Shown here piece by piece: positions 13,404 through 62,579 of a stretch of 64,000 nucleotides of DNA. How positions within the stretch are numbered: the stretch's first letter is position 1; the number at the start of each line of letters is the position of its first letter. Under the pieces are notes generated by a model that was not told the DNA's origin, ran no database searches, and saw only the letters and a list, made by a program, of their open reading frames with translations. Source of the stretch: Bacilli bacterium (lineage in GTDB: Bacteria; Bacillota_I; Bacilli_A; RF39; UBA660); NCBI GenBank assembly GCA_017470045.1, contig JAFUFG010000001.1, positions 62,001 through 126,000 of the forward strand, given 5' to 3'. A program made the translations under genes and the position numbers.

Positions 13404-15764
13404 TTATTTTATAGGACCCTTATCTCTAAATTCACCTATATCTTTATGCCAATCTTTATACATTTTAAAAATTGAATACATAGTGTCAAAGTTAGCGTTA
13501 GGTTTATCCCTCTTCAATCTTCTAAATAATGAAATCATAGTAGAAGTTCCTTTTACCATAATAGCATTATTTTTAAATAAAGATTTATCTTTAAAATAAA
13601 TATAAGGTATCTGAACCCCTTCTACTATAAGCTGATTGGAAGTTGAATATTTAGGAACAATAAGTTTTACTACACTATAAATCCATTCGAATAATTTTTT
13701 AAAATGTTTTCCCCATTCTGCTTCATTCCAATTACGATTAATAGTACAATCTTCAATCAATTTCTTATTATTTTTAGCAAAATCATAAATATATTTAAAA
13801 TTTTTATCTTGATTTATTATTTTCTTAATTTCGTTATTATTATTTTTCTCTGCTAATAAATGTAAAAAATGTTCTACACTATCTATTTCTAATAAATCAC
13901 AATTCATTTCATCTGCTAGTTTTCTAGCAGTAGTTGTTTTGCCTCCACCTGATTGCCCTGTAATCCAGAGTATCGGTACTTTACGATTCTTAAAATCATC
14001 AACTCTATATTCTACATCTTTTTCAGATATAAAAAGAGGTTGAGAAGATTCAGTTATAATTTTTACACTATTTTTAGTTTTATAATAAGTATCTCTAGTA
14101 TAATTTTTAGTAGGTTCATAAATCTTAAAATCAGGTCTACTTTTTATTAATCCTACACTAGCTTTATTATCTCTATCTACAGAATAACATAAAACATTGA
14201 ATTCAGATTGACCATTAAACCACTGTATAGCTTTATTTAATAATAATTTAGATATTCCTTGACCTCTATGCTCAGGATCAACTACTATACCTATCCATAC
14301 ACCATCTTTTAAAGGTTCGAGAACTTTTTCTCCTTTACATGTCATAGATAAATCTACAAATCCTACAGGCTCATTATCTATATAATGAAAATATCTATAT
14401 ATAGTATTTATACTTTCTCCAGAAGTTCCAAAACCAAAAAACTTTTTATCTTCTTTAGTTAATTTTTTGTATACATTTAAAGCATCTTTATATGTACCAT
14501 TACTTTCAACTTTTCTAGGTTTATGATAACATTGCTTTTCATTATAAGATTCGTTAAGAGGAATTTCAAATGAATATTGTGTTTTAGATTGGCTAGTCAT
14601 TTTAGAACTATTATAATTCTTAATAAGATTTAATGATCCTTTATTACCTTTATCTAATTTATATATTACTTTTTTATATCCCATTTCTCTTAGTTTATTA
14701 CAGCATTTAGCTAGCATTTTCTTAGCTATACCTCGTCCTCTATATTTAGGATCTACAGCTAATATGACAAATGCTGTTGTTTTAGAAGTACCATTGTATT
14801 TATATGCTTCTATAAAACCAATAGGATTATTATTATCCTTTTCGATATACCTATAAATCTTATAAGGACTATCTACAAATCTACCACTTGGTGATACAAA
14901 AGCTTTATCAGAATCTGATAAATTATCATATACTTTTTTAGCCAATTCATATGAAGATGATTCATTTAACGGCAAACTATCTTCATGTACTCTACTGATA
15001 GTATTAGTATTCTCTGGGTCTTCTATCATCTGTAATTTAAGTTCATACATAATACCAATTAATTGGCCGAATTGATTATCTGTAAGTCTAAGATAGTTAT
15101 ATTCACCTTTATTAGTAATAACCTTTTCCTTTTCTATTTGTTTTTCTCTATAAGAATGCATATCTCTATTGTTAGGATTATTACCACCATCTTTAATATC
15201 AATACAAAGATTATATGGTAATATTAAAACATCAGTAATCCATACATGTTTCTCTCCATGATAACTATATTCTATAGTAGGACCAGGCATCATTATATTA
15301 TCTGGATCCATATTAAGCATAATATCACAGAACTCTAAAAATTTCTTTTCATAAGATCCAGTGAACTGTTTAATCTTTCCATTTCTAAACTTATATATAC
15401 CAGAAATACTACGATTACGTAGCATCTTCTCTTGCTGATCCATGTCATTGAGAATATTATAAGTCCCATATACTTTTAGCATATTCTTCTTATATGAATC
15501 TCTTAACTTATCTTTACATTCCCTTCTATCACATAATCTATTATATTTATACGTTCTTTCGTTCCATTTAGTTTCGCCTTTACATATAACACAACTACCT
15601 TTTACATTATATGGTCTTTTATGAATAGAATGAAATAATACCTGAGCTGCAGTAAACCCTTCTGGAATCATTTCTTCATGCTGTTTTTCTATATGATATA
15701 CTAATTTCTCTTTTGTATTATGCTCATTACAAAAAGGGCATTTAAATCTTTTATTTGGATTCAT
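13404..15764 (-). CDS. Multidomain protein: zinc fingers, PD-(D/E)xK nuclease, two GNATs, P-loop kinase
   Basis: 786 residues with five readable modules. Residues 9-29 form a C2H2-like finger (C9, C12, H24, H29). Residues 58-83 form a second zinc knuckle (CVIC, then C78 and C83). Residues 136-200 fit a PD-(D/E)xK nuclease (E139, D178, then D189-I-K191). Residues about 270-400 and 415-560 are two GNAT acetyltransferase domains with acetyl-CoA loops VDPKYRGRGIAKKM and VDPEHRGQGISKLL. Residues 596-786 form a P-loop kinase-like domain (GQSGGGKTT, 603-611). The nuclease part resembles phage restriction/homing-type enzymes. Joint function unknown. It follows the TIGR array and its terminator. Ribosome binding site GAAGGAGG. 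Confidence 0.65.
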   Translation of the reverse strand: MNPNKRFKCPFCNEHNTKEKLVYHIEKQHEEMIPEGFTAAQVLFHSIHKRPYNVKGSCVICKGETKWNERTYKYNRLCDRRECKDKLRDSYKKNMLKVYGTYNILNDMDQQEKMLRNRSISGIYKFRNGKIKQFTGSYEKKFLEFCDIMLNMDPDNIMMPGPTIEYSYHGEKHVWITDVLILPYNLCIDIKDGGNNPNNRDMHSYREKQIEKEKVITNKGEYNYLRLTDNQFGQLIGIMYELKLQMIEDPENTNTISRVHEDSLPLNESSSYELAKKVYDNLSDSDKAFVSPSGRFVDSPYKIYRYIEKDNNNPIGFIEAYKYNGTSKTTAFVILAVDPKYRGRGIAKKMLAKCCNKLREMGYKKVIYKLDKGNKGSLNLIKNYNSSKMTSQSKTQYSFEIPLNESYNEKQCYHKPRKVESNGTYKDALNVYKKLTKEDKKFFGFGTSGESINTIYRYFHYIDNEPVGFVDLSMTCKGEKVLEPLKDGVWIGIVVDPEHRGQGISKLLLNKAIQWFNGQSEFNVLCYSVDRDNKASVGLIKSRPDFKIYEPTKNYTRDTYYKTKNSVKIITESSQPLFISEKDVEYRVDDFKNRKVPILWITGQSGGGKTTTARKLADEMNCDLLEIDSVEHFLHLLAEKNNNNEIKKIINQDKNFKYIYDFAKNNKKLIEDCTINRNWNEAEWGKHFKKLFEWIYSVVKLIVPKYSTSNQLIVEGVQIPYIYFKDKSLFKNNAIMVKGTSTMISLFRRLKRDKPNANFDTMYSIFKMYKDWHKDIGEFRDKGPIK

Positions 15765-15823
15765 TACAAAAACCTCCTTCTATAATTACCTAGATGTTTT
15801 GGAATGTAGTAAATAGAAAAAAA

Positions 15824-15853
15824 TAAACCAGACAGCATATGCTGTCTGGTTTA
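15824..15853. terminator. CATATG-centred terminator at the end of the tas/array unit
   Basis: 30-base perfect palindrome, half-arm TAAACCAGACAGCAT. On the minus strand it lies directly after the repeat array, so it would close a tasA-array transcript. Confidence 0.7.
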
Positions 15854-15868
15854 CTCTCGAAGTTTTTG

Positions 15869-16750
15869 TGTATAATCAGTTTGGATGGATCAATCATGCA
15901 ATCTGTGTTAATCAAAACCCATGTTTCATTCATAGCTTGTGTTATTGATCTTGAAATGTAGTAATTCAATCTTCTGCTGTAATTTAATTCAAAAGCTTTG
16001 TTTCATTCTTCTTGAATGTTAAAATCTAGTTTTTTAATTCATTCTTCCTCTTTGGGTCGATCGATTGATTTAATTCTATCATAGTCATTGGTTTAATCTT
16101 TCGCAATGTATCATTCGGTAATAATATTATTAAACTTTTTATCTGATTCAATCATTACGACTGTGGTAATCAACCCTCCTGTTTCAATCATAACTAATGT
16201 TGTAATCTGCTTGAGTGTTTCATTCGTAAGACTTGTTAAAATCCAGCATCATTAATTCTATCCGTGGTCTTGGTTTAATCATAAGGTTTGTATCATTCGG
16301 CAATTAATGTTATTCATCTTATTGAATGATTCAATCTTTGTTATTGTAGTTTAATCAAACCTCCTGTTTCATTCTTTATTTCTGTGTAAATCTGTGTAAT
16401 TAATTCAATTCTGTGTGGTCAATCTTCAGGTGTGTTTCACTCATACCTTTTAACATTATTCGAGATTACTGGTTCAATCCCGGCTGTTGTAATTAATCAT
16501 TTCGTTTGTTTTATTCTTCTGCAATGTTGTTATTCTTTTTCCTTAATTCAATCTGCGCCAATGTGATAATCAGGCATTTTGTTTCTCTCATCACTATTGT
16601 TATTAATCCATTTGTTTGGATCATTCTCCTGGTATGTGATAATCTTAAGTTATGATTCATTCGATATTCATGGTATTATCAAAATTCATAACTTATTAAG
16701 TGACTCGATTAAAATATTTGTAATTAATCTAAACGGTTGTCTCAATATTT
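15869..16750 (-). repeat. TIGR-like guide RNA array (36-base period, alternating 9-base repeats and 9-base spacers)
   Basis: A non-coding stretch of about 880 bases with stops in all frames. Read on the minus strand it alternates two degenerate 9-mers: type A, GAATGAAAC or GATTGAATC; type B, GATTACAAC, GATTAACAC or GATTTTAAC. Each is separated from the next by a variable 9-mer. Plus-strand type A sites end at 15895, 15931, 15971, 16008, 16044, 16080, 16116, 16153, 16189, 16225, 16262, 16298, 16336, 16374, 16410, 16442, 16479, 16516, 16553, 16589, 16626 and 16662, mostly 36-37 bases apart. Type B sites fall midway. About 24 units. This is the layout of TIGR arrays, which yield 36-nt tigRNAs with two spacers. 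The strand is inferred from the adjacent minus-strand tas gene. Confidence 0.85.
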
Positions 16751-16754
16751 ATAT

Positions 16755-16783
16755 ATAGGGGTGACAATCATCCCTATATATTA
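16755..16783. promoter_or_regulatory. Hairpin between tasA and the array
   Basis: Arms TATATAGGG and CCCTATATA, extended by a G-T pair and TGA/TCA around a CAA loop. It overlaps the tasA stop and has no T-run on the minus strand. It may be a weak terminator or a processing/boundary hairpin ahead of the array. Confidence 0.45.
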
Positions 16784-17758
16784 TTCATTAAATAATTCTA
16801 ACTCATCTTCTGTAATATCCATAGGCCAGTTAGGTGCAGGAACCATATGAGCATGTCCTAACTGAGCAATCGGATACGGTTTAGGTGGTTTCTCATGATG
16901 ATACATTTCATAATATACATCAAAGAAATGTGACAGAAATCTTTTTGTAGCATATCTAGCAGCTCTTGCTGCGATATGACAATCCGGCAACATTCCGGTT
17001 TCGTAAATTTCTTTCATCCACATGGTCTTTTCAGTCCATTTTCTAGTTTTTACAATATCAAGAGCCTGATCTAAATACTCCAGGTTCTCATTCTTTTCTT
17101 TTTCATACGCCTTCCTTTCTTGATAAATCTTTCCATAGATATCACTTTCGCGATTGGAAGTCTTTACAAAAGACTGCCCAATTTTCCAATACAATGTTTT
17201 AAGAGACGCATTCCACGGTCTCTTTTCACCCTTTTTCCATGTCATTCTATTCGGGTCTAATCCACCAAATGCTTGAATTTGTCCTGCTGTTTGAACTTTA
17301 CTAATGTCAATATGTGCAATAAGTCCTGCTGCTATTACTGGGCCAATCCCAGTAATAGATAATAACCAACGTCCAATAGGTTTAGACTTAGCATAAATTT
17401 CCAAACATGCTTTCATGTCTTTTTCATTTGCTAAATAAGTCTTCAGAAAATAATCCAACGTTTTGTGCGGTTCGATTATCGGTTCTTGTTTGATTAATTC
17501 ATCAAGTTCTTCTTGAGTAGCATTACCCTTTTCTACTTGATGAGTCAATTTAGACACTTCTTTCTCCCAATCTTTATGCGGCTTATGAATAGCCGCAATT
17601 TGGTTATTCGCCCGAATCCTGTCTTTCTGTGTAATATAATACAGATCTACTAGGTCACGAGCTTCTTCTTTGGTCATTGTTACAGATGCTTTTTTCAACT
17701 CTTTGGAAATCTTTCTAATTTCCTGAATCTCTTGTGCATCTTCAAAAATAGTGCTCAT
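16781..17758 (-). CDS. tasA: TasA-type Nop/IS110-like protein, partner of the TIGR array
   Basis: 325 residues. Residues 136-169 (TGIGPVIAAGLIAHI, then DISKVQTAGQIQAFGGLDP) match the helix-hairpin core of IS110/IS116 transposases and the related Nop-like RNA-binding fold. Residues about 1-120 are helical, probably coiled coil. Residues 258-310 form a basic, aromatic C-terminal segment (ARYATKRFLSHFFDVYYEMY, ending PPKPYPIAQLGHAH). The N-terminus has no RuvC/DEDD acidic motif as in IS110 transposases or TasR, and no HNH motif as in TasH is visible. That leaves the nuclease-free TasA type. It lies directly beside the array. Ribosome binding site AAGGAGG, 7 bases from ATG. Known Tas proteins bind DNA guided by tigRNAs; the biological role here is unknown. 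Confidence 0.8.
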   Translation of the reverse strand: MSTIFEDAQEIQEIRKISKELKKASVTMTKEEARDLVDLYYITQKDRIRANNQIAAIHKPHKDWEKEVSKLTHQVEKGNATQEELDELIKQEPIIEPHKTLDYFLKTYLANEKDMKACLEIYAKSKPIGRWLLSITGIGPVIAAGLIAHIDISKVQTAGQIQAFGGLDPNRMTWKKGEKRPWNASLKTLYWKIGQSFVKTSNRESDIYGKIYQERKAYEKEKNENLEYLDQALDIVKTRKWTEKTMWMKEIYETGMLPDCHIAARAARYATKRFLSHFFDVYYEMYHHEKPPKPYPIAQLGHAHMVPAPNWPMDITEDELELFNE

Positions 17759-20926: not shown

Positions 20927-22971
20927 ATGATGAGTCAACAAAAACGATTCTTTACTATAGATCCATTAGATATAGATAAGTTTATAGAATATAATGAATG
21001 TAAGCCTATAACTAACGCTATTTTCTTTGATGCTAATGGAGCCCCTACACCAGACGGATTATTATCTAATAATATATTTGGTATTACTAAACAAGATAGA
21101 GCTAATACTTTTGGATATATTAATCTCGGTGGAGAATACTTTTTACATCCATTATTCTATCAAACTTGGAAAACTCTTGATCGGAACATAGTAAAATGTG
21201 TTCATGGTACGTCTAATTTCATCATAGATAAAGATGGGTATGTAGTAGAGTCTGAAGAAGGAGAGACTGGAATAGACTTTCTTAGAAAGAATATATCTAA
21301 AATAAAATTTAAACCATCTGATTCTACTACTAGAAAAATAGATATAGAGTTTATGGAGAAGTATAGAAAGTTAGCATTTATTAGAAACTATCTTGTTATA
21401 CCTGCATTCTATAGAGACGTTCTTACTACAGAAAGATATATAGGCGTAGGAGAGATCAATAAATTATATGCACAACTTATAATGGCTGTTAGAAGTTTAG
21501 TTGAATTAGATAAGTTTGGTATAACAGTATACGATGCGAATAAGGGTAGAATTCAGGAGATCATTCATGATATATTTGAATTCTTAACTCAAGGCAAGAT
21601 TAATGGTGAAAGAATGGGTTCTACTATAGCTGGTAAAGCAGGCGTATTCTTGTATGGTGGTACATCTAAGACTACAGACTATTCGTCTAGAATGGTTATT
21701 GTAAATCCTAATTTAAAAGTAGAGTCTATAGAAGACTTAATGGTAGATGAAGATCATGCTGCTTTACCGTTAGCATCTGTTATTGTAAATTACTATCCTT
21801 ATATACTTACTTATGTAAGAAAGTTCTTTGAAGATGAATATTTAAATAACTCTATTAGAACTACTATTGATCCTAAGACTGGTAAAGAAATTAAAGTTAA
21901 ACTTAAAGATGTACGTATAGCATTTCCTGATGATGTCTTAAAAGAAGAGATGGGAAGATTCGTACATGGTATCGCTAATAGATTTAGACCTATAGAACTA
22001 CCTACTGAAGATAGGAGATATCCTACAGTTAAAATAAGATTCTTAGGGAGAACTATTACTAAAGAACAATTACGAGATCCATCTAAGATTACATCTGATA
22101 CCAATGTAGGTATTGTGGATAGACATATGACTTGGTGTGATCTATTTTACATGGCTGCAGTAGATATCGTAAAAGATAAGTATACACTTATTACACGATA
22201 CCCAATTGATACTTGTTATAACCAGTTTCCAATCGGCATAAATGTAAATAGTACTATCAAGACAGAACCAATGCTTATCGATGGTAAAGTGTATAGATGG
22301 TACCCACATATAAGAGAATCTGATATTGGTAAGAATACAACTCAGAGCTTTGTAGATACTTGTATGGTACCAAATACATCATTAGAATTCTTGAAAGGTG
22401 ACTATAAACTTTAGTTACGGATCATTGTAGTCACATAAATAAACCTTCTTAATTGCGGGGAAGAGCGTAAATCATTGTAATAACCAAGTTTAGATAGTGA
22501 TATCTAGATGGCGATTAGTAACGGAATCGGTATGGTAAAATCATTACAGATTGCTTTATCAAACGCAGCGAAGCTTCTACGTAAGATAGAAGAACGTTCA
22601 CAGACTATCGAAAGCTAATAAAAATAAGGTAGATTGAGATATCTACACGAAGTGAGTAGAGTAGGATATCTACATATCCGAAAGAGAAGGCTACGTTTCA
22701 AAAGATTATGGCTTTTCAAATAAAAAACGTAGATAATATAGTCGAAATAATAATAATAAACTGTTTGGATGGGGACACCGTAACGTCTAAGTCTCTTTAT
22801 TCTATAGAAGCAAATAATGAATTAAAGAATCAACTTAATTCTAAAAGGCATTATATATCTTTTGGTGGGGTAAATATAGCAAAAACTACCAATGAAGGTA
22901 TGGAAACAATGTATAATCTTACTATGAATCTTAAAGAAGATGAAAAGAAATTTATAGATCCTGTATTTTAA
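20927..22971 (+). CDS. RNA polymerase beta' subunit, N-terminal part (two exons)
   Basis: Coding exons 20927-22405 and 22768-22971, joined to 560 residues. Exon 1 reads as the beta' N-terminus: GLLSNNIFG near the start, a YINLGG...HP segment, then TLITRYPIDTCYNQFPIGIN and KVYRWYPHI, which correspond to the region before the active site. Exon 1 ends ...LKGDY and exon 2 begins DGDTVTSKSLYS. The join restores the Mg-binding DxDGD motif (here GDYDGD) of all multisubunit RNA polymerases. The protein ends soon after, and the C-terminal half is encoded at 49082-51265. A split beta' is usual in phiKZ-type jumbo phages. Ribosome binding site AAAGGAG. Confidence 0.9.
22406..22767 (+). ncRNA. Group I intron in RNA polymerase beta'
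   Basis: 362 bases without a substantial ORF. The upstream exon ends in U and the intron ends in G, as in group I introns. P7 can be formed by CAGACTATCG (22601-22610) and AATATAGTC (22735-22743). AATTGCGGGGAA (about 22453-22464) resembles the P4 strand of phage group I introns. The in-frame ATG at 22708 lies inside the intron and is probably not a real start. Confidence 0.85.
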
Positions 22972-28866: not shown

Positions 28867-30807
28867 ATGAATTTTCCACAATTAATAACAGGCTATCCAA
28901 AAGGTAGCGATATAACTATTTTAGATTGTTCTTATAGATATCCTAGAAAAGATGAAGATAGTGGTCTTACTAAATCTGATTCAGTATTAATTATATTTAA
29001 AGATAATAAAACAGGACAAAAGAAGTATGAATTAATAGAGAAACCTGAATATGCTTATTACTATAAAGATATTAATAAATATGGTGATGTAGGTTACAAT
29101 CAGTTCTTTGAGAGTGAAGATTATTTGGATCTCGTTATATGCAGATACAAAGATCTTAATAAGTCTTTAGCAAAAACACTTGGTTATTCTAAAGAATGGT
29201 TTGCTACTAATAAAGCAGATAGATCCAAGATGGATATGTTGATAAGAGATAGAAGAATATTTGGTTCTGATATAGATATCAATGATTTCTATCGTATGAG
29301 ATTTGCAGAGCAATATACTAATGAAGATATTAGTGTAAATATTGGGTTCTTTGATATTGAAACCGATAATGCTCAGATAGGAGGTAAGTTCCCTGAACCA
29401 GGTGAATGCCCTATTAATGCAATATCATATTTTGATGGTACTACTAAAGAATTATATACTCTTTTATTGGATACTAAAAATAATCCATTAATAGACGAAT
29501 TTATATGTAAATATGACGAGGGTGCCTTTAACCTTGAGTTTCGAGAGTTCTTAACGCACGCATTTGGAGGCGTTCAGGAAGTCGAAAAATTCAAATTAAG
29601 CGAAATCCAGACTCATGTGTATATGTATACGTCCGAAGTCGATTTAATCGCTGATTTCTTTAACTTTGTAAATATGAAGCGTCCAGACTTCATGTTGGCA
29701 TGGAATATGGCATTCGACTTACCATTTATTATTGAAAGATTAAAGACTCTTGGAATTAATCCAGAAAAGATAATATGTGATAAAGAGATACCAATAAAGC
29801 ATTGTAGTTATTATATCGACGATAAGCATGACGAATTTGCAGAACGAGGGGATGCAGCAAATATTACTTCATTCATAGTTTATCTTGATCAGTTAATTCA
29901 GTTTGCATCTAGACGTAAAGGAACTAAGTTTAGAAATTATAAATTGGATGGCATTGGTGAAGAGATAGCAGGAGTTCGTAAGTTAGACTATAGTGATCTT
30001 ACCAACAACGTCTGGGAATTACCATACTTAGATTATAAGAGATTTGTAATGTATAATATGATGGACGTATTAGTTCAGTATTGTATAGAGTTTAAGACTG
30101 ATGATATTCCATATTTATATAGTAAATCTCTTATGAATTGTACTCAGTTCCGTAAAGTACATAGACAGACTATTTATTTAGCAAATAGAGCTATAATCAG
30201 ATTCTATGATTATAATCGATTTGTTATGGGTAATAATGTAAATAAGTTTAAACCAAAACCAACCGATAAATATGAAGGTGCATTTGTAGCAGATCCTATT
30301 TTATATTCTGATAAGAATAAAGTAAAAATAGACGGTGCTCCGATAGATATGACATGTAATACAATCGACTATGACTTTAAGAGACTGTATCCATCTCTTA
30401 CACAAGAGTATGGTATGGCTCCTAATACACTCATAGGTAAGTTAGAGATTCCACATCGTATTTATCAAAAAGAAAATGGTCTTCACAATCCAAAGTATAC
30501 TAGATCTGGTCAATTTATAGAAGACTTTACTTCTGAATGTCCAATTCAGTTCTGTGCTAGATGGTTACATTTGGGCACTGTATCTGAAGTATACCAAGAT
30601 ATATTTGAGTATTTCTATAAATATGAAGTTCCATGTATTGATATCTTTAATGAATTTTATAGTAAAGATAAGATAGATATAGCTGGAATATTAGATCCTA
30701 ATTATAAAGTGAATATTGCTATGGTTATAAATGATGAACAAAAGAGAATGATGAATATTACAATACCAAATAGACCAGTAAGAGAAGGAGAAGTTCATCA
30801 TGATTAA
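28867..30807 (+). CDS. DNA polymerase family B, N-terminal part (exonuclease and palm motif A)
   Basis: 646 residues. It carries the three 3'-5' exonuclease motifs: FFDIETD (161-167), LAWNMAFDLPFI (277-288) and YNMMD (396-400). It also has polymerase motif A DFKRLYPS (503-510). The protein then ends: motifs B and C are absent and are encoded about 12 kb away at 42745-46240. So the polymerase is made as two polypeptides split between motifs A and B, and these presumably assemble. The 3' end overlaps the next gene by 8 bases. Confidence 0.9.
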   Translation: MNFPQLITGYPKGSDITILDCSYRYPRKDEDSGLTKSDSVLIIFKDNKTGQKKYELIEKPEYAYYYKDINKYGDVGYNQFFESEDYLDLVICRYKDLNKSLAKTLGYSKEWFATNKADRSKMDMLIRDRRIFGSDIDINDFYRMRFAEQYTNEDISVNIGFFDIETDNAQIGGKFPEPGECPINAISYFDGTTKELYTLLLDTKNNPLIDEFICKYDEGAFNLEFREFLTHAFGGVQEVEKFKLSEIQTHVYMYTSEVDLIADFFNFVNMKRPDFMLAWNMAFDLPFIIERLKTLGINPEKIICDKEIPIKHCSYYIDDKHDEFAERGDAANITSFIVYLDQLIQFASRRKGTKFRNYKLDGIGEEIAGVRKLDYSDLTNNVWELPYLDYKRFVMYNMMDVLVQYCIEFKTDDIPYLYSKSLMNCTQFRKVHRQTIYLANRAIIRFYDYNRFVMGNNVNKFKPKPTDKYEGAFVADPILYSDKNKVKIDGAPIDMTCNTIDYDFKRLYPSLTQEYGMAPNTLIGKLEIPHRIYQKENGLHNPKYTRSGQFIEDFTSECPIQFCARWLHLGTVSEVYQDIFEYFYKYEVPCIDIFNEFYSKDKIDIAGILDPNYKVNIAMVINDEQKRMMNITIPNRPVREGEVHHD

Positions 30808-42744: not shown

Positions 42745-45700
42745 ATGGATCAATATGATAATAGAGGTATTCAAATACAATCTTCTGAATATTTAAAAGA
42801 AGACTATTCTAGTATGATGAGAATGTACCCAGAAGATGCTTCTAAAGAAAAAGCATTTGAAGAATACAATAACCAAATGTTTAGAGTAATGAGACTTCTT
42901 ATCCCCACATTAGGAGATAATGAACTTGAACGAGCAATCTCTTATTCTATTAATAAAAGAGCATATAATGGTGCTATTAGAGTAGAAGACTCCTATAGAG
43001 GAGAAGAATTCAATAAGAATACCCAAATGATTGAAATGGTGAATTATTTATTGAGTCGTAAACCAATTCTCACATCATTTGGATGTATCTTTACTCAGCA
43101 TGGTGATATGCCAAATCCCATGTACCAACTTATACAAGAATTCTCAGACAGACGGGATTCGTACAAGAAAGAGATGTTTAAGTACGAAAAAGGTAGTGAA
43201 TTATTTAATAAATATAATTTATTTCAGTTGATCGCGAAAGTGGACGCAAACGCTTGAGTATAGGCCCGTTATTTGGTAACAAATAGCGTGAACAGTGGTG
43301 AAATGCTGGAAAGCGGTAAAGCCCTAATAGCTACAACGTAATCTGTAAAGATAAGCGTGAATGCCGTCGAAAGACAGAAAAAATATTAGGGATGGTATAT
43401 GCTGAGATAAAAGCTTATATAATCTTACTCCAATTATATAAGTGCTAAGTACCTTTACAATCTGTAATCAGTTACTGAGAATACATATTCGTATTATTTC
43501 TTTCAGGGTTACATTACTTCCATAAAGATAGGAGGAATGATAAATCATGGAAGAATATAATGGATTAATAAAATTTGCATATGAAGAACAATGGTCTTTA
43601 ATAAGAGACCCGAGAGTTAGGCCAAATATGTATTTGGTTAGTACATTCGGAAGAGTATGCCATGCTTATTCAAGGGAAATACTACGACTAGAATTAATTA
43701 ATAGTGGGTATCTTACAGTTCATTTAATAAGATCTGATAGTGATGATAGAAAATACGTATCATGTCTAGTTCATCGTTTAGTTGCAGAAGCATTTATTCC
43801 TAATGATAGTCCGTTAAAAAATACAGTCAATCATATTGATGGAAATAAATTAAATAATTATGTATGGAATCTTGAATGGATGACTCAATTAGAAAATAAT
43901 ATACACGCAGATTTATACAAATCTGGAGTTGAGCATTATAAAGCTAAGCTTACAGAAAAACAAGTTAGAACTGCATGTGAAATGCTGTCTAAAAATGAAC
44001 GATATCGAGATATAATTACAGCTATTGGATTAGACCCTAATGAACCTAATAATTATGATATTATTGGAAATATTAGACGACGAATTACATACCTTAATAT
44101 TAGTAAAGATTATGTATTTCCTTATAAAACAAGAATAAATAAACATTCTGAAAAAGAAATTCGAGAAATTTGTAAATGTATATCTGATGGATTGACTATG
44201 AGAGAAGCATTTACTAAGTTAACAGGAAAAGTATATTCTTGTTATACTGATAAAAGTTTTAACGAATTGTATAGAAATATAAAAATTAGAAAAATATGCA
44301 AAGAAATAAGTAACGAATATGATTTTTAGTTCAACGACTATTCCTGAAATGGAAGTAGAATACAAGTGTATTCGAAGCGCCACTGGTCCTATTTAAAAAT
44401 AGGATTATAATATAGTCTCGCCATCATGGTAACACCATGAGAAGTTCATAAGAGAACTGCGTAAATGTTTCGACGTTCCCAAACGCACGCATTTACGTGA
44501 AGATAGTCGATTTACGGGAGTTCCGGTGCGCCGTCGTCGATATTTTATAATATTCATGTTGCATCTTCTATTACTAGACAGGGTAGAAGTAGTATATCTG
44601 CATCTATCATGTTCTTTGAAGCATTCTTAGCAAATAATACAAAATTTGGTTCTTTAGATGAAGTATTTACATTTATAGATAATGTATGTATGGAGAGACC
44701 AAATAGATCTCGAGAGAATTATGATACTAATATTTTGGATAGAAATGTATCTGTTGAAGAATGTTTTAATAAGCTAGTTCTTACATGTGGATATAATTGG
44801 ATTCCGAATAATATAGAACTAGATATGATTTGGGCGGCAGTATGCCGTTTAGATCAGCAAGACATTAATAGAATTTATTATAAGAATAATTTATTTGAGT
44901 TTTTTGAAAATTCTACTCCAATGAATTTATTAATAGACATTTTAGGATCTTTAGATACACCATTCTTTGATCCCAATAAACCGCCAAAGTCTATTGAATT
45001 CAAATTATCTGTATTGGATAATTTAGTATCCGAATATATATTTTATAATTATCAGACTATAGATAAGATTGAACGAGTAGAACGTCTTATTAGAGAAGTG
45101 GTTGTTGTAGTAGATACAGATAGCTGCATGATCAATCTAGACCCATGGTATCACTATGTAGAAGAGAAGATTAGAGGTATTAATATTCCAATTAAGAATT
45201 ACGATATTCAGGGAGATAAATTGTTAGATAAAGAAGATATTAATGATGGCTCTGATTGTAAAGAAGAGATTACTCAGTTCTATGATTTTTATAATGACGA
45301 AATTATAGAAAAGAAAAGAGTTATTAATCCAACTAAGATTATTGCAGAAGACGGATTGAGATACTCCATTATTAATATTATGGCATACATTATCTCCAAT
45401 TGTTTGCGTAAGTATTTTGATAAGATTGGTAGACTTCATAATACAACTAACAAAGAACACGATTTCTCGTTCTTGATTATGAAGAATGAATTCTTATTTA
45501 AACGTATTCTTCTTACAAATGTAAAGAAACACTACGCTACATATGTAGAAGTGCAGGAAGGAAAAAGAATACCAAAAGGAATAGATACTTCTCTTGATAT
45601 TAAGGGTATGGAAATAGCCAAAACAACAGTACCAGTTTCTACCAAAAAAGCATTATCTAAGATTCTCTATGAAGATATATTGAATTGTGATAATATTAAT

Positions 45701-46240
45701 CAATTACAGATTCTTAATGATATAGCAGTATTAGAGAGACATATTTTAGACAGTATTAAGTCTGGATCTTTAGAGTATTATAAACCAGTAAAAGTTAAGT
45801 CTATTGATTCTTATAAAGAACCAATGTCTCAGCAAGCAATCAAGGGTAGTGTAATATATAATGCTCTTAGATCTTCAACAGAACCACCAATCAATTTAAA
45901 AGAAGCTCAGTCTAATGTATTTGTAATTAAAACAGATATTACAATTTCTAGATTAGAAAACGATTATGAATATAAAGAGAATTATCCAGATAAGTATCAA
46001 ATCTTTATGGATATATTGTCTAAGAATTCTTTGAATATTTATAATGAAAAAATATCTATCAATCATAGAGAAATAACGTCTATCGCCATACCAGATGGAC
46101 TTGCAACTCCTGTATGGTTAATGCCATTTATCGATTATGATAGTATTCTGAAAGACAATATTTCGGGTTTCCCATTAGAATCTGTTGGCTTTACAAAATT
46201 AAATACTAATTCAGCTATATCTGGTATAGTACATTTATAA
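42745..46240 (+). CDS. DNA polymerase family B, C-terminal part (motifs B and C; two exons)
   Basis: Exons 42745-43254 and 44510-46240, joined to 746 residues. Exon 1 has its own start (GAGGAGGAG upstream) and ends [15 protein letters not shown]. Exon 2 begins [14 protein letters not shown]. The join restores polymerase motif B (K...NAxYG) of the fingers, followed by [14 protein letters not shown]. Motif C is VVVVDTDS with DTDS at 45113-45124 (residues 372-375), and the remainder is the thumb. Together with the 28867-30807 product it makes a full family-B polymerase. The ATG at 44609 is internal to exon 2. Confidence 0.9.
43255..44509 (+). ncRNA. Group I intron in DNA polymerase, with endonuclease ORF
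   Basis: 1255 bases. The 5' exon ends in U and the intron ends in G. P7 is formed by TCAACGACTATTCC (44331-44344) and AATATAGTCT (44409-44418), both in the usual group I context. The endonuclease ORF occupies the middle. About 290 bases before and 180 bases after the ORF form the structured RNA. The insertion lies between the Ala and Ile codons of motif B. Confidence 0.88.
43547..44329 (+). CDS. Intron-encoded HNH homing endonuclease (NUMOD4-HNH)
   Basis: 260 residues with ribosome binding site ATAGGAGGA. The N-terminal NUMOD4-type segment is [13 protein letters not shown]. The HNH core is [13 protein letters not shown], then [20 protein letters not shown]. Helical DNA-recognition repeats follow. 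Family members nick or cut the intron-less allele to spread the intron. It sits wholly within the intron and ends 180 bases before the 3' splice site. Confidence 0.88.
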
Positions 46241-46683: not shown

Positions 46684-48078
46684 ATGGCTTACGAAGATTT
46701 AACAGGAAAAACAGTTGGTAAGTACAAATGTATTGAAATGGTTGGTAAACGTAGTAACGGAGTACCAATCTACAAATGCGAATGTAAAGATTGTGGGTGG
46801 ATTGGAGATGTCAATTATAGTACAATAATTGATTCCGATAACCATCCAAAATGTGCACACAAATGGAATTATAATGATTGGATTGGTAAAGATATTGGTA
46901 GATATCATGTAATATCAATTGATCATGTAGAAGAAGTTCCATTTGGTACAAGTCATTATCCAAGATATTATTTTAACGTAATGTGTAATAGATGCGGAAT
47001 GCCAGCTATTATTACAGATAATGATATAAAGAAAGATATGAAAAATACAAATTTAAATGCGATAACAAAATGTTCTCATAATGTTGATGAATCTAAAATA
47101 GTTGGTATGCAATTTGGTAAATATAAAATTACTAAAAATATGGGTAGAGTTAATGGTAGAATAATGGTAGAAGCTGTTTGTACTAAATGCGGATTTGTTA
47201 AAACTTATAGACTTAATGATCTTAAAGATAGATCCAACGACAATCAGGAAATATGCACTCATAAATATACATGGGATCAAGAAAAAGAAAGAGAACGCTC
47301 TGGAGAAATTATAGCAGATAAAGGTATTGGTGATACTACTATGGGTAAATATAGTATCATTCAGTTTTTAAAACGGGATGAGTATGGCCATCGAATTTAT
47401 TATGTTCGCTGTAATAGATGTGGATGGGAAGGTAATATGGTAGACCATAATATACTTGCATCAAAAGATAAAATAAATTGTGTGCATCAGACTTCCAGTA
47501 ATATTTGGTCTACTGCTAGATTGGGATATATTTATGATGCTATGGTAGATAGATGCTATAATCCTCATAATGTAAATTATCCTAATTATGGAGCTAAAGG
47601 TATAGGTGTGTGTCCAGAATGGTATGATCCTAATGATCCTAATAATTATATTGGAAAAAGGAATTTTAATAAATTCGCTGTAACTCATGGGTTTACAGAT
47701 TCACTTAGTATTGATAGAATAGATCCTACTAAAGATTATTCTCCAAATAACGTTCAATTTGTTACTCGAAAATATAATTCTATATTTAGAGCTAATGTAG
47801 AGGTTATACATATAATAGGTAATGGAATCGACATTCCTGCTACTATTAGCGGATGGGAAAAAATATTAAATATTGCTGACGGATTTTTAAGAAGAACATT
47901 TAATCCTTCTTTATATCCAGATCCTGCAATGAGATACTATTATATGGTATCTTATATTGTAAATGTATTACAACCTAATGCTTTACCAGGATCATTTGTA
48001 TATAAAGTATATTTTGAAAAACCAATAGGATATGATTTTAAAACTTCATTCGATTTGTATCCTACTAAAAAAGAATAA
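46684..48078 (+). CDS. Free-standing HNH-type endonuclease with zinc-ribbon repeats
   Basis: 464 residues, ribosome binding site TAGGAGG. Residues 1-270 hold four imperfect repeats of the form GKY.VI...C..CG.......C.H (for example CECKDCGWIG and CTKCGFVK), each a likely zinc ribbon. The C-terminal part has MVDRCYNPHNVNYPNYGAKG, then CPEWYDP, and LSIDRIDPTKDYSPNNVQFV: the pattern of HNH/AP2-type homing endonucleases. It is not inside a recognisable intron. The broken copy at 42147-42586 resembles its repeat part. Confidence 0.75.
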   Translation: MAYEDLTGKTVGKYKCIEMVGKRSNGVPIYKCECKDCGWIGDVNYSTIIDSDNHPKCAHKWNYNDWIGKDIGRYHVISIDHVEEVPFGTSHYPRYYFNVMCNRCGMPAIITDNDIKKDMKNTNLNAITKCSHNVDESKIVGMQFGKYKITKNMGRVNGRIMVEAVCTKCGFVKTYRLNDLKDRSNDNQEICTHKYTWDQEKERERSGEIIADKGIGDTTMGKYSIIQFLKRDEYGHRIYYVRCNRCGWEGNMVDHNILASKDKINCVHQTSSNIWSTARLGYIYDAMVDRCYNPHNVNYPNYGAKGIGVCPEWYDPNDPNNYIGKRNFNKFAVTHGFTDSLSIDRIDPTKDYSPNNVQFVTRKYNSIFRANVEVIHIIGNGIDIPATISGWEKILNIADGFLRRTFNPSLYPDPAMRYYYMVSYIVNVLQPNALPGSFVYKVYFEKPIGYDFKTSFDLYPTKKE

Positions 48079-54703: not shown

Positions 54704-57286
54704 CTAATTACCAGGATTGAAGTTTTTAAAATTCATATTTTCATCGACTTGTTTTTTAGACAGCTCATTTGGATCCATACCAAAGTTGGTAAATAACGAA
54801 TTTGGTAAAGTAAACTGCCCACCAACCATACTCTCTGTTTCTTGTAAAGGAATATGATAGTACTTAGAGTAAGCTTCTCTTGCAGCTTTATTTTGAAGCA
54901 TATTCATTAACAACTCGTTTTCTTTTACACGCTGTTGTTTAATGAAATCTCCAAACATGGTACCCATACCTTGTTTAAGAACTTTAAGAGATTCGTTCAT
55001 CTCTTTAAGAGTCTTTTGCTCGTCTTCTTCAGGAAGTTTAAGTTCTTCAATTATCTCTACATACTTCTTTTCAAGATCAGTATCAGCACCAACAATATCA
55101 TCAACACTATCTTCAGTCTTAATTGGAACTTTATTGATATGGAAGTTTTCTTTGATATTCTTACCTTCATACCATACATATAGAGCCATTAATAAAGAGA
55201 ATACTAAGTCATCGTGAGAATTCTCGCTGTGTTCTACTTTACCATTTCTTTTAACCACCATCTTAGATAATTCATCTAATAAGACAGGGCTATTGAACTT
55301 GTCTTTATGGCGTTCCATTCTTTCTCTTAATATTTCTATTAAGAGATCACGCATATCTTTACTAGAATCTAATCCATATACTTTAGTACGTTGTTTTCTT
55401 CTAACAACTCTTCCAAAAGCGTCACTGGTTTCTTCTATAACTCTATCTTTAATTTCGTAATAAAGATTTTGTTTAATTCCACCAGGCTCTTTTAGTTTAG
55501 CTATTAATGATGCCCCAAAACCCATTAGTTTCTTTATAGACGCAACTCTATAAAGCTTGGTTCATTCCAAGTCACTTCCATTACAGAACGTGAGCAGATC
55601 ATATGTCCATCTCTATAAAATATAGAGAGCGGTATTTTTCTTCCACCATAAGCTTGTGGTTCTACTCTCCCGTCAGGAGATGATCGTTGAACGTCTACTA
55701 TTTATATTAAATAGCATTTCGCTTCTGAACAAAGGTATTCTATTTAAGAACTTAACCTTCTTCCCAGAAATTAACACCGGAAACTGGTAAGTCGCCTTAC
55801 CAGCTGAGATTGCTTTCGCTACTCCATTACGCTCTATATTAATTACAGCGTTGGGCATCATAGTTCTTACTATCCATATTAGTACTCGTGCTGTATCTGG
55901 AATGCTCATATAGTTACACTTTATACCAGCTATATATTTAGTAGTCTTACTATCTATAACTGATATAGCGGTATAGTCTCGTTTATAACCGCCAGATACG
56001 TCGACGCCTACTATAGGAGGATTGATAGGTACGCCTGCCACACTTACTTCAATAGTATCATAAATATTCAGGTTATATTTATTTAATACTAATACTGTAT
56101 TTATAGGCTCGTGGACCATACCTCTTAATGCTTCAATATCATCCTGCGAGAAAGGAGAGTTTTCAGGTGTATCAATCCATTCAAGTAAAATCTCTCGACG
56201 GATAGCTACCATATTCCATTCCATTTCTTTGCAGACTCTATAGAACCATTGTTCCCCTAAGCCTAATTGTTTATATGTGTATCTAATATAAACATAGTTA
56301 GAGTTCATATTGTTAGCTATAATATCCATTATTTCTTGATATGATAAATCATACCAAGCTTCACTGAATACTGTAGCATTCTGTATCATTCTAAAAGCAT
56401 ACTCTCCTTCAGGTGTAGAAAGTATGCCTGCAGTTGTAGTAATAGTAACTCCATAAGGAGCATTAACTTTAGCTGCATTTTCGAATGCTTTCATTAATGC
56501 AGGAACACCATTTACATAAATAACATCATTAAATTTAGTAAATGCCCATTCGTCTAACCAGAGATTTGTAATGGTATGACCACGAATCAAGTTAGCTGCA
56601 GCCATTGCATTTCTAGCACTCGGACTAGTTCTAATGATATTATGATTAAATGGATTTTGTATAGTAGTAACTGTAGATGGTAATTTCTTCTTTTTACCAG
56701 ATACAACTGAATACTCTTGATCAAACTGTAAATAAGATGGTAGCATGCTACGCACTGTCTTCATTTGATCCAAGTTTCTTTTAGCGTCAGGATGCTGTTT
56801 GTTCATGAAGAGCATAGCACTATTAGCAGAACCAAAGTTATATATCCATAAGTATCTGACATTAGCTGCCATGGTCTTACCAACCTGACGAGGCATCTCA
56901 AAGAATGTATTTAAGTTGTACATCGTACAAAAGTTGTATGCTAGGTTTCCACGATTTAGTTCATACCGTATACCCTGAGGAGAACCAGAAGAAGGAACTC
57001 TAACCACTTCTCTAAGAAAGTACCAATAGTTACGCTGTACTTCTTTAAGAATTTTAGTTTTGATAGCTAAACTAAGATTAGGGTCATACGGATCAACTCC
57101 TGCTAAATCAGGATCATACAAAACAAGCATGAATCTATTATTCTTTATACCAATAGCTTTTAAATAATGATGCATATTTAAAAAACTAGTGTTACTAGTA
57201 CTCATCTGATAATAAGGTTTCAGATATTGAGTCTGAGGAACCATTTGTCTCGAATTAGGAGATATTAGATTATTAATAATACTCAT
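54704..57286 (-). CDS. terL: Terminase large subunit (two exons)
   Basis: Exons 57286-55826 and 55522-54704 on the minus strand, joined to 759 residues. Exon 1 has the packaging ATPase with Walker A-like PRQVGKTMA, a TNLWLDEWA Walker B-like segment, and the start of the RNase H-like nuclease (GVDVSGGYKRDYT). It reaches INIERN. Exon 2 starts GFGASLIAKL and continues KQNLYYEIKDRVIEE to HDDLVFSLLMALYVWYEG. The join gives IERNGFGASL, the expected continuation of the nuclease. Without splicing, exon 1 would read on for about 50 residues of intron. Ribosome binding site AAAGGAG. Confidence 0.9.
55523..55825 (-). ncRNA. ORF-less group I intron in terminase
   Basis: 303 bases on the minus strand. 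The 5' exon ends in U (AAT codon) and the intron ends in G. P7 pairs ACGATCATC with ATATGATCTG, the same position as GACTAT/ATAGTC in the other two introns but with both strands changed, so the pairing is kept. GTTCAACGA is shared with the polymerase intron. Perfect stems CTGGTAAG-GCGA-CTTACCAG and CTCTATA/TATAGAG are also present. Confidence 0.85.
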
Positions 57287-61748: not shown

Positions 61749-62579
61749 ATGATTAAAAGCATTCAGTATACTAATTTAGAAAATGTACCATCGTATTATG
61801 CTGCCGATGTTAAATCGTTAGCTCAATTTATAAAGAAACCAATGGAATTTAAAACTGGTATTAATGTTATTCTTGGGCCAAATGGTATAGGAAAATCAAC
61901 TATTATCAGAGATTTAGCAAAATATTTTTATTGTTATAATACAGGTATTTTTGAATTTACAGATAGCGCTATAGACGAAGTATATAAGCACAGTTTAGAT
62001 CAATATTGGAAAGCTATTGATAAACTTAGAGATGGAATGACAATCAGTTCTGATGGTCAAGTATGCTATATTTCATCTAAAAGATTTAATGGAAACGTTG
62101 ATGTTTGTAACAGAGATTATGGTAATGATATGGATGGATTAGCTGAAGTATGGAACAATTTCCATTCCAGTAGTGGTCAAACCAATTTAAGATCATTTAA
62201 TCATATATGGAATTTAATAAAGAAGTTGGATTTTGACGCACATAGAAAGAAAGTTATAATAGACTATAAACAAACTGATCAATATAAAAACAGGCATTTT
62301 GGTATTACAGAATTCTACCATATAGAGAATCCAGATTTAAGTCCTAGTGTTCCTACAATATTAATGGACGAATTAGATGCCAATCTAGATGTAGTAAATA
62401 CTGTGTCTTTATTTAAAGCATTTGAAATACTATCAGATAGATTTCAAATTATTATGTCTACACATTCTCCATTACTCTATTATATAAAAAATGTAAATGT
62501 AATAGAATTAATTCCAGGATACTATAAGAAATGTGATGAAGAACTACATGCCTTCATGAAAGATCATAATCTGGGGTAG
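61749..62579 (+). CDS. AAA/ABC-type ATPase
   Basis: 276 residues, ribosome binding site TAGGAGG. Walker A GPNGIGKST lies at about residues 43-51. A later TILMDELDANLD is Walker B with D-loop, followed by MSTHSPLLYY as switch. This is the compact ABC-type ATPase arrangement of the AAA_21/OLD-like class. No TOPRIM nuclease follows in this chain and no partner nuclease adjoins it, so whether it acts in repair or anti-defence is open. Its TAG stop lies in the following palindrome. Confidence 0.75.
   Translation: MIKSIQYTNLENVPSYYAADVKSLAQFIKKPMEFKTGINVILGPNGIGKSTIIRDLAKYFYCYNTGIFEFTDSAIDEVYKHSLDQYWKAIDKLRDGMTISSDGQVCYISSKRFNGNVDVCNRDYGNDMDGLAEVWNNFHSSSGQTNLRSFNHIWNLIKKLDFDAHRKKVIIDYKQTDQYKNRHFGITEFYHIENPDLSPSVPTILMDELDANLDVVNTVSLFKAFEILSDRFQIIMSTHSPLLYYIKNVNVIELIPGYYKKCDEELHAFMKDHNLG

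Follow-up and report, generated by a model that had tools for sequence, protein, structure and literature searches.

A TIGR-TasA locus with unit-by-unit edge complementarity on a likely jumbo phage

We analysed a 64,000-nt stretch of Bacilli bacterium DNA (hereafter the window; positions 62,001 to 126,000 of contig JAFUFG010000001.1, assembly GCA_017470045.1), which carries, on its minus strand, a gene for a predicted nuclease-free Tas protein next to an array in which two repeats, edge and loop, alternate between short spacers. TIGR-Tas systems were published in 2025 (PMC12045711), in a paper whose Discussion states the origin, change and targets of TIGR arrays as open. In the array described here the edge repeats are not constant between units, and without exception two bases of an edge complement two in the edge that follows. 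We consider it probable that the locus is of the TIGR-TasA kind and lies on a likely jumbo phage, and that about 22 two-spacer guides lead a nuclease-free TasA dimer to double-stranded DNA, likely blocking a competitor's transcription or replication.

Array layout and complementarity between successive edges

The array (15854..16662, minus strand) comprises 22 complete units, each running on that strand as edge repeat (10 nt), spacer A (8 nt), loop repeat (10-12 nt) and spacer B (8 nt), and its last edge is truncated. Parsing of the minus strand with the Viterbi algorithm returned an edge of type GAWTGAAACA and a loop of type GATTANAACA, with 8-nt spacers in most units, and a cyclic-profile parser gave identical edges, which span 16662 down to 15858. 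When the truncated last edge is counted, there are 23 loop and 23 edge repeats, that is, 22 complete units preceded by one partial unit. A preliminary description of this DNA had put the numbers somewhat higher, at about 48 half-units (46 by our parse) and about 24 guides; its alternation of two repeats held, and its sizes of 9 nt for repeats and variable segments alike did not. Unit lengths are 36 nt (n = 10), 37 nt (n = 8), 38 nt (n = 2), 32 nt (n = 1) and 40 nt (n = 1), so that 18/22 measure 36-37 nt. Nearly all repeats, edge and loop alike, start with GA and finish with CA or TA, as shared box-like ends, and units 11 and 16 differ in their spacers but not in their scaffold.

In 22/22 cases, the base at position 8 of an edge complements that at position 3 of the following edge, and the same holds for positions 7 and 4 (22/22). 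Elsewhere the 8-3 pair was found less often (same edge, 3/23; two units on, 2/21; two back, 7/21; one back, 12/22; three on, 11/20), and none of 200,000 shuffles gave more than 18 matches. The 7-4 pair is less varied and holds within a single edge in 14/21. All internally mismatched edges were complemented by the next edge (19/19 for 8-3 and 7/7 for 7-4), the clamp types being AT/AT, AA/TT, TC/GA, TA/TA and AC/GT; an analogous pair is present in 18/22 of the loop repeats. Since the pairing partner changes with the neighbour each time, the unit runs from mid-edge to mid-edge. At the sequence level, the two edge halves within one predicted tigRNA are complementary at both pairs throughout (22/22 and 22/22), and with each clamp closing on the unit to which it belongs, the array can be read as a series of self-contained cassettes.

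As described in PMC12045711, TasR has one edge pair beyond the box C/D pair, which is backed by covariation between arrays and forms between different edges of the processed tigRNA. What is new here is that, within a single array, the partner varies between units, agreeing with the neighbour each time. Judged by titles and the beginnings of abstracts, the papers found include one primary paper on TIGR-Tas systems (PMC12045711), besides the review PMC12385481. We found no report of clamp covariation inside an array or of TIGR in jumbo phages, in a search whose coverage left out most subscription journals, bioRxiv preprints and supplements; the word "jumbo" is absent from the main text of PMC12045711.

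A first scan of viral contigs with tas gave no relative; a profile scan of viral contigs retained the best 80 of 157 relatives, and a later one the best 80 of 134. Across 87 relative arrays, both clamp pairs occurred in 769/1034 complete neighbours (2000 shuffles: mean 548, maximum 577), and internally mismatched edges were complemented by the next one in 196/300 (8-3) and 202/341 (7-4) cases, against shuffle means of 109 and 107. The two-pair fraction was at least 0.9 in 47/87 arrays. In a larger set of 170 arrays from 129 loci, where the edge block was picked by clamp score, a choice that the shuffles did not repeat, and where some duplicates remain, internally mismatched edges were complemented by the next one in 329/504 (8-3) and 428/524 (7-4) cases (shuffle means 188 and 236). 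The relatives thus appear mostly to obey the clamp rule. A further tandem repeat of 18 bases, downstream of one TIGR locus (L001:11405-12131; GCTTCGGTC / GATTCGGTC), is coding-like and is not a guide array.

The 18- and 36-base periodicity previously proposed was borne out: self-match of the minus strand over 15861-16760 reached 0.397 at lag 18 and 0.387 at lag 36, above every one of 1000 dinucleotide shuffles (0.307, standard deviation 0.015; maxima 0.353 and 0.356, respectively, and 0.375 over all lags from 5 to 119). Lags 73, 37 and 109 likewise rank among the highest, which fits a unit size of 36 or 37 nt. No open reading frame (ORF) of at least 60 aa lies between 15764 and 16781, in agreement with the non-coding status assigned earlier, and a coding repeat is thereby ruled out. 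CRISPR was also rejected, as CRISPR arrays have a single 25-36-nt repeat, separated by spacers of comparable length, and here two 10-12-nt repeats alternate. A one-full-unit pattern matched 4 times in the window (maximum 0 across 100 shuffles). An array-profile scan found no second array elsewhere in the window (best score 13; 600 nt of the array itself score 221), and an Rfam search of the window gave no match.

The Tas protein and the ends of the array

The adjacent gene, tasA (16781..17758, minus strand), encodes a 325-aa Nop-domain Tas protein with no recognised nuclease domain. It matched the NCBIfam model NF052498, "TIGR-Tas system RNA-guided endonuclease", with 173 bits (E 6.3e-51; cut-off 100), and phmmer related it to 9mty, titled TIGR-TasR (1.1e-11), and to TasH (3.3e-10). 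In its AlphaFold2 model (pLDDT 84.4), residues 2-124 are almost wholly helical, and the top ten Foldseek matches are all TasH or TasR, ranking above IS110. The assignment to a TIGR-Tas system is therefore supported by family, sequence and fold, and so is the IS110/Nop-like core attributed to the gene beside the array, both by this fold and by PF02371 Transposase_20, the sole Pfam family above its cut-off. Pfam matches at E up to 10 included no RuvC or HNH family, which supports the nuclease-free character claimed for the protein; it would accordingly be of the TasA subtype, an unknown nuclease fold being conceivable. The tas frame is open and has invariant residues in common with 21 homologues. 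PADLOC gave no match to tas, and a protein search of the phage collection with it returned a single match, in Salicola phage CGphi29 (26% identity).

The tas stop lies at 16781 and the regular array begins at 16680, with a leading partial unit (16663..16680, minus strand) consisting of a loop-like GATAATACCA and spacer B TGAATATC. Ahead of it, where a 5' truncated edge would be expected, the array start is degenerate: the stretch 16681..16750 (minus strand), which the preliminary description had counted as array, is indeed array-like, with edge- and loop-like words judged by eye, but their spacing is irregular. An AT-rich 14-bp hairpin without assigned strand (16751..16781) separates the array from the tas stop, and the scan lists it as terminator-like on the plus strand. 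Directly 3' of the array, the terminator scan found an intrinsic terminator (15819..15858, minus strand; 18-bp stem, -26.2 kcal/mol, z -8.0), and the truncated last edge forms part of its stem. A promoter scan was uninformative (9 found, 15.3 expected).

The locus resembles the dual-repeat TIGR-TasA systems described in PMC12045711, such as FpTIGR of Flavonifractor plautii, in its solo Nop-domain Tas, its adjacent array of alternating edges and loops, its two short spacers per unit, and its truncated last edge with terminator. It differs from them in that the edges vary by unit and complement the next edge instead of themselves, and in its likely jumbo-phage carrier. The 8-nt spacers total 16 nt, as given for SpTIGR, whereas FpTIGR has 18 (PMC12045711). 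With TasR (9mty) and TasH (9vzx, 21kl) the protein shares, in sequence and fold, the coiled-coil and Nop core, but the N-terminal RuvC or HNH domain of these proteins was not recognised in it. The variable yet complementary unit ends recall the TIGR stem-loop arrays of PMC12045711; here, however, the complementarity amounts to two base pairs between successive edges, and edge and loop repeats are still recognisable, so that the array looks intermediate between the dual-repeat and stem-loop types.

Guide turnover, targets and proposed function

Close relatives have guides in common, in the same order. Across 18 chosen pairs, shared guides were separated by gaps of unequal size in 37 cases and of equal size in 19; unequal gaps would correspond to units gained or lost, or to several changed. 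In the equal gaps, 16 readable units showed 0.81 scaffold mismatches per 20 positions, against 3.62 for random units of the same arrays, and their spacers differed on average at 5.3/8 (A) and 5.1/8 (B) positions. The clearest pair, L004 and L008, is 98.9% identical over 871 nt comprising most of tas and shares 17 guides in arrays of 25 and 23 units; 5 units (L004:6992-7460 and L008:912-1380) have 0-1 scaffold mismatches and 2-7 (A) and 2-4 (B) spacer mismatches. Such common-scaffold cases could reflect whole-unit replacement, and stepwise spacer mutation is possible too, since some changed spacers keep most of their bases. Guides differ between some phages that are 97-99% identical in the flank upstream of the array; no guide change was seen in the near-identical pairs L133/L135 and L147/L149.

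Two RNA polymerase scans found one sibling of the carrier, the 11-kb viral contig L097, which is syntenic with the window in blocks of 71-84% nucleotide identity. A hairpin and an array of 9 units occupy the equivalent place in L097 (1795-2300); the clamps of this array hold in 7/8 and 7/8 cases, with the 8-3 pair within a single edge in 3/8. A 35-codon frame starts within about ten bases of the expected tas start. The closest guides of the two arrays differ at 7/16 positions. Of 8 records searched, L097's is the one without tas (7/8 positive), and tas was found in 0/3 further small array-bearing records (5-15 kb). Two larger records have arrays away from tas: in G004 (83.5 kb) the array lies at 10.3-11.8 kb and tas at 77.4-78.3 kb, and in G007 (81.9 kb) they lie at 7.5 kb and 22.8 kb, respectively; an array-like lag-36 signal is present beside tas as well in both. 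These second arrays, at least 15 kb from tas in the same record, are L123/L124 (G004) and L125/L126 (G007).

In the mechanism that we propose, the minus-strand precursor would be cut mid-edge, by analogy with other TIGR systems for which the cut position was measured (PMC12045711), and the ends thus created on each 36-37-nt guide would pair through the two-base clamp. Spacers A and B would then pair with opposite target strands, and a predicted nuclease-free TasA dimer with its guide would bind the matching double-stranded DNA and keep a competing element from being transcribed or replicated. Cassettes could be gained, lost and re-spaced as whole units. More tentatively, and with somewhat more doubt than belief, we suggest that TIGR arrays are mosaics of self-closing cassettes, joined, deleted and re-spaced mid-edge without an adaptation gene, that stand-alone arrays are served by a Tas from elsewhere or from another phage, and that the turnover of guides far outpaces that of tas, in the manner of an arms race. 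The clamp rule provides a test of guide start and end that uses sequence only, by which arrays can be parsed and joints read, and it predicts joints at mid-edge. Trans-acting guides also become testable, given a nuclease-free system of guides on what is likely a jumbo phage and a sibling array without adjacent tas.

Several observations weigh against this silencing role or against the generality of the clamp. The two-pair fraction was at most 0.5 in 11/87 relative arrays, some of which may be cases where the parser took the loop for the edge, and the two clamp pairs were found in 12/30 and 7/30 cases in L104, 11/23 and 23/23 in L099, and 0/3 and 1/3 in L111. No array signal was seen near tas in 15/89 relative loci. 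L097 retains an array but has no tas within its 11 kb, so that the locus is not always complete; the units of 32 and 40 nt (2/22) may be defective. Lastly, no site in the 64-kb window was a convincing target of the 22 guides (0 exact, 1 one-mismatch and 9 two-mismatch sites). For this search the array was masked, and the expected arrangement put the reverse complement of B after spacer A at a gap of 0-2 bp, as inferred from the "C - 5" rule of PMC12045711 and the 8-nt 3' overhang given there; the opposite order was run among the controls because the two wordings of the cut position in that paper disagree. The three control arrangements gave 0/0/12, 0/1/7 and 0/0/8 exact, one-mismatch and two-mismatch sites in the window.

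When 1127 guides (1105 from 68 relative loci and the 22 of the window) were pooled against 1.34 Mb of array-masked DNA, the expected arrangement was slightly in excess, with 5 exact and 157 one-mismatch sites against 1, 1 and 2 exact and 107, 146 and 122 one-mismatch sites for the controls. Within their own loci the pooled guides had 0 exact sites in every arrangement and 2 one-mismatch sites (controls 1, 2 and 2). Window guides against L097, and the reverse, gave 0 exact sites in any arrangement; with one mismatch, the opposite order gave a single site. For a guide that G004 and G007 have in near-identical form, neither order gave an exact match among 11 records. Searching with spacer pairs, as the preliminary description had suggested, thus yielded no convincing target in the window, L097 or the relatives' DNA. 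Guide 17 fits both window position 14548 (2 mismatches) and L097:538 (1 mismatch) in the opposite spacer order, at sites that look homologous; the fit is weak given the number of tests.

A nuclease-free protein would also suit control of the phage's own genes, with tigRNAs on its own promoters or genes timing expression, and the target search covered only 64 kb of the genome. We nevertheless regard this as rather unlikely, as sites in the window were no more frequent than in control arrangements, the pooled guides of 69 loci had 0 exact sites in each guide's own fetched DNA, and guides differ between some phages with nearly identical flanks, even if the two near-identical pairs named above are unchanged. 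RNA-guided DNA bending that aids recombination or integration, raised for TasA in PMC12045711, would fit the Nop/IS110 kinship of the protein and the bending of target DNA by TasR by about 180 degrees (PMC12045711); it appears very unlikely here, given that 22 diverse guides would exceed the need of one integration site and that a PHROG scan of 21 of the 60 larger ORFs in the window found no integrase-type family apart from tas.

We likewise see very little chance that the locus is a decaying, non-functional remnant. The degenerate stretch ahead of the first full unit, the few odd unit lengths and the lack of tas in the sibling's 11 kb would agree with decay, whereas the clamp pairs are intact in 44/44 cases, the tas frame is open with its shared invariant residues, and the terminator is intact. 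Finally, an IS110-type transposase gene that happens to lie beside an unrelated repeat is suggested by the Transposase_20 family and by PHROG 4285, labelled "transposase" (E 1.9e-38). This candidate has next to no chance and was rejected: the IS110 model NF033542 scored 42.2 bits, below its cut-off of 140, TasH and TasR rank above IS110 in fold, and 74/89 relative loci have array signal within 2.5 kb of tas. IS110-type bridge RNA recombinases likewise differ from the system here, which has no match to their model at the cut-off and possesses a guide array.

The carrier phage and its other genes

The preliminary description had placed the locus on a large phage, and this is backed by a phage RNA polymerase subunit part (20927..22414, plus strand; PHROG 2986, E 3.1e-62), further RNA polymerase subunits, a split family B DNA polymerase and the hallmark terminase large subunit (55673..57286, minus strand; PHROG 32359, E 3.5e-52); an SbcC-like gene is also present. 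Neither megablast with the window's first 25 kb nor blastn with the tas-array stretch gave a match in the phage collection. The RNA polymerase part matched 213 phage records; among the 25 matches listed, it is 28-32% identical to those of Listeria LPJP1, Staphylococcus S6, Bacillus AR9/PBS1/Goe21, Fusobacterium phages and others. The listed phages of the Listeria LPJP1, Staphylococcus S6 and Bacillus AR9/PBS1 type measure about 224-269 kb, and the listed Fusobacterium phages about 175-180 kb. Because this part resembles PBS1/AR9-type phages, the carrier would be a distant relative of the PBS1/AR9 jumbo phages, and is likely of jumbo size itself. The family B DNA polymerase appears to be split between 28867-30807 and a distant part at 44609-46240, and HNH endonuclease genes (43547-44329 and 46684-48078) lie on either side of the latter part.
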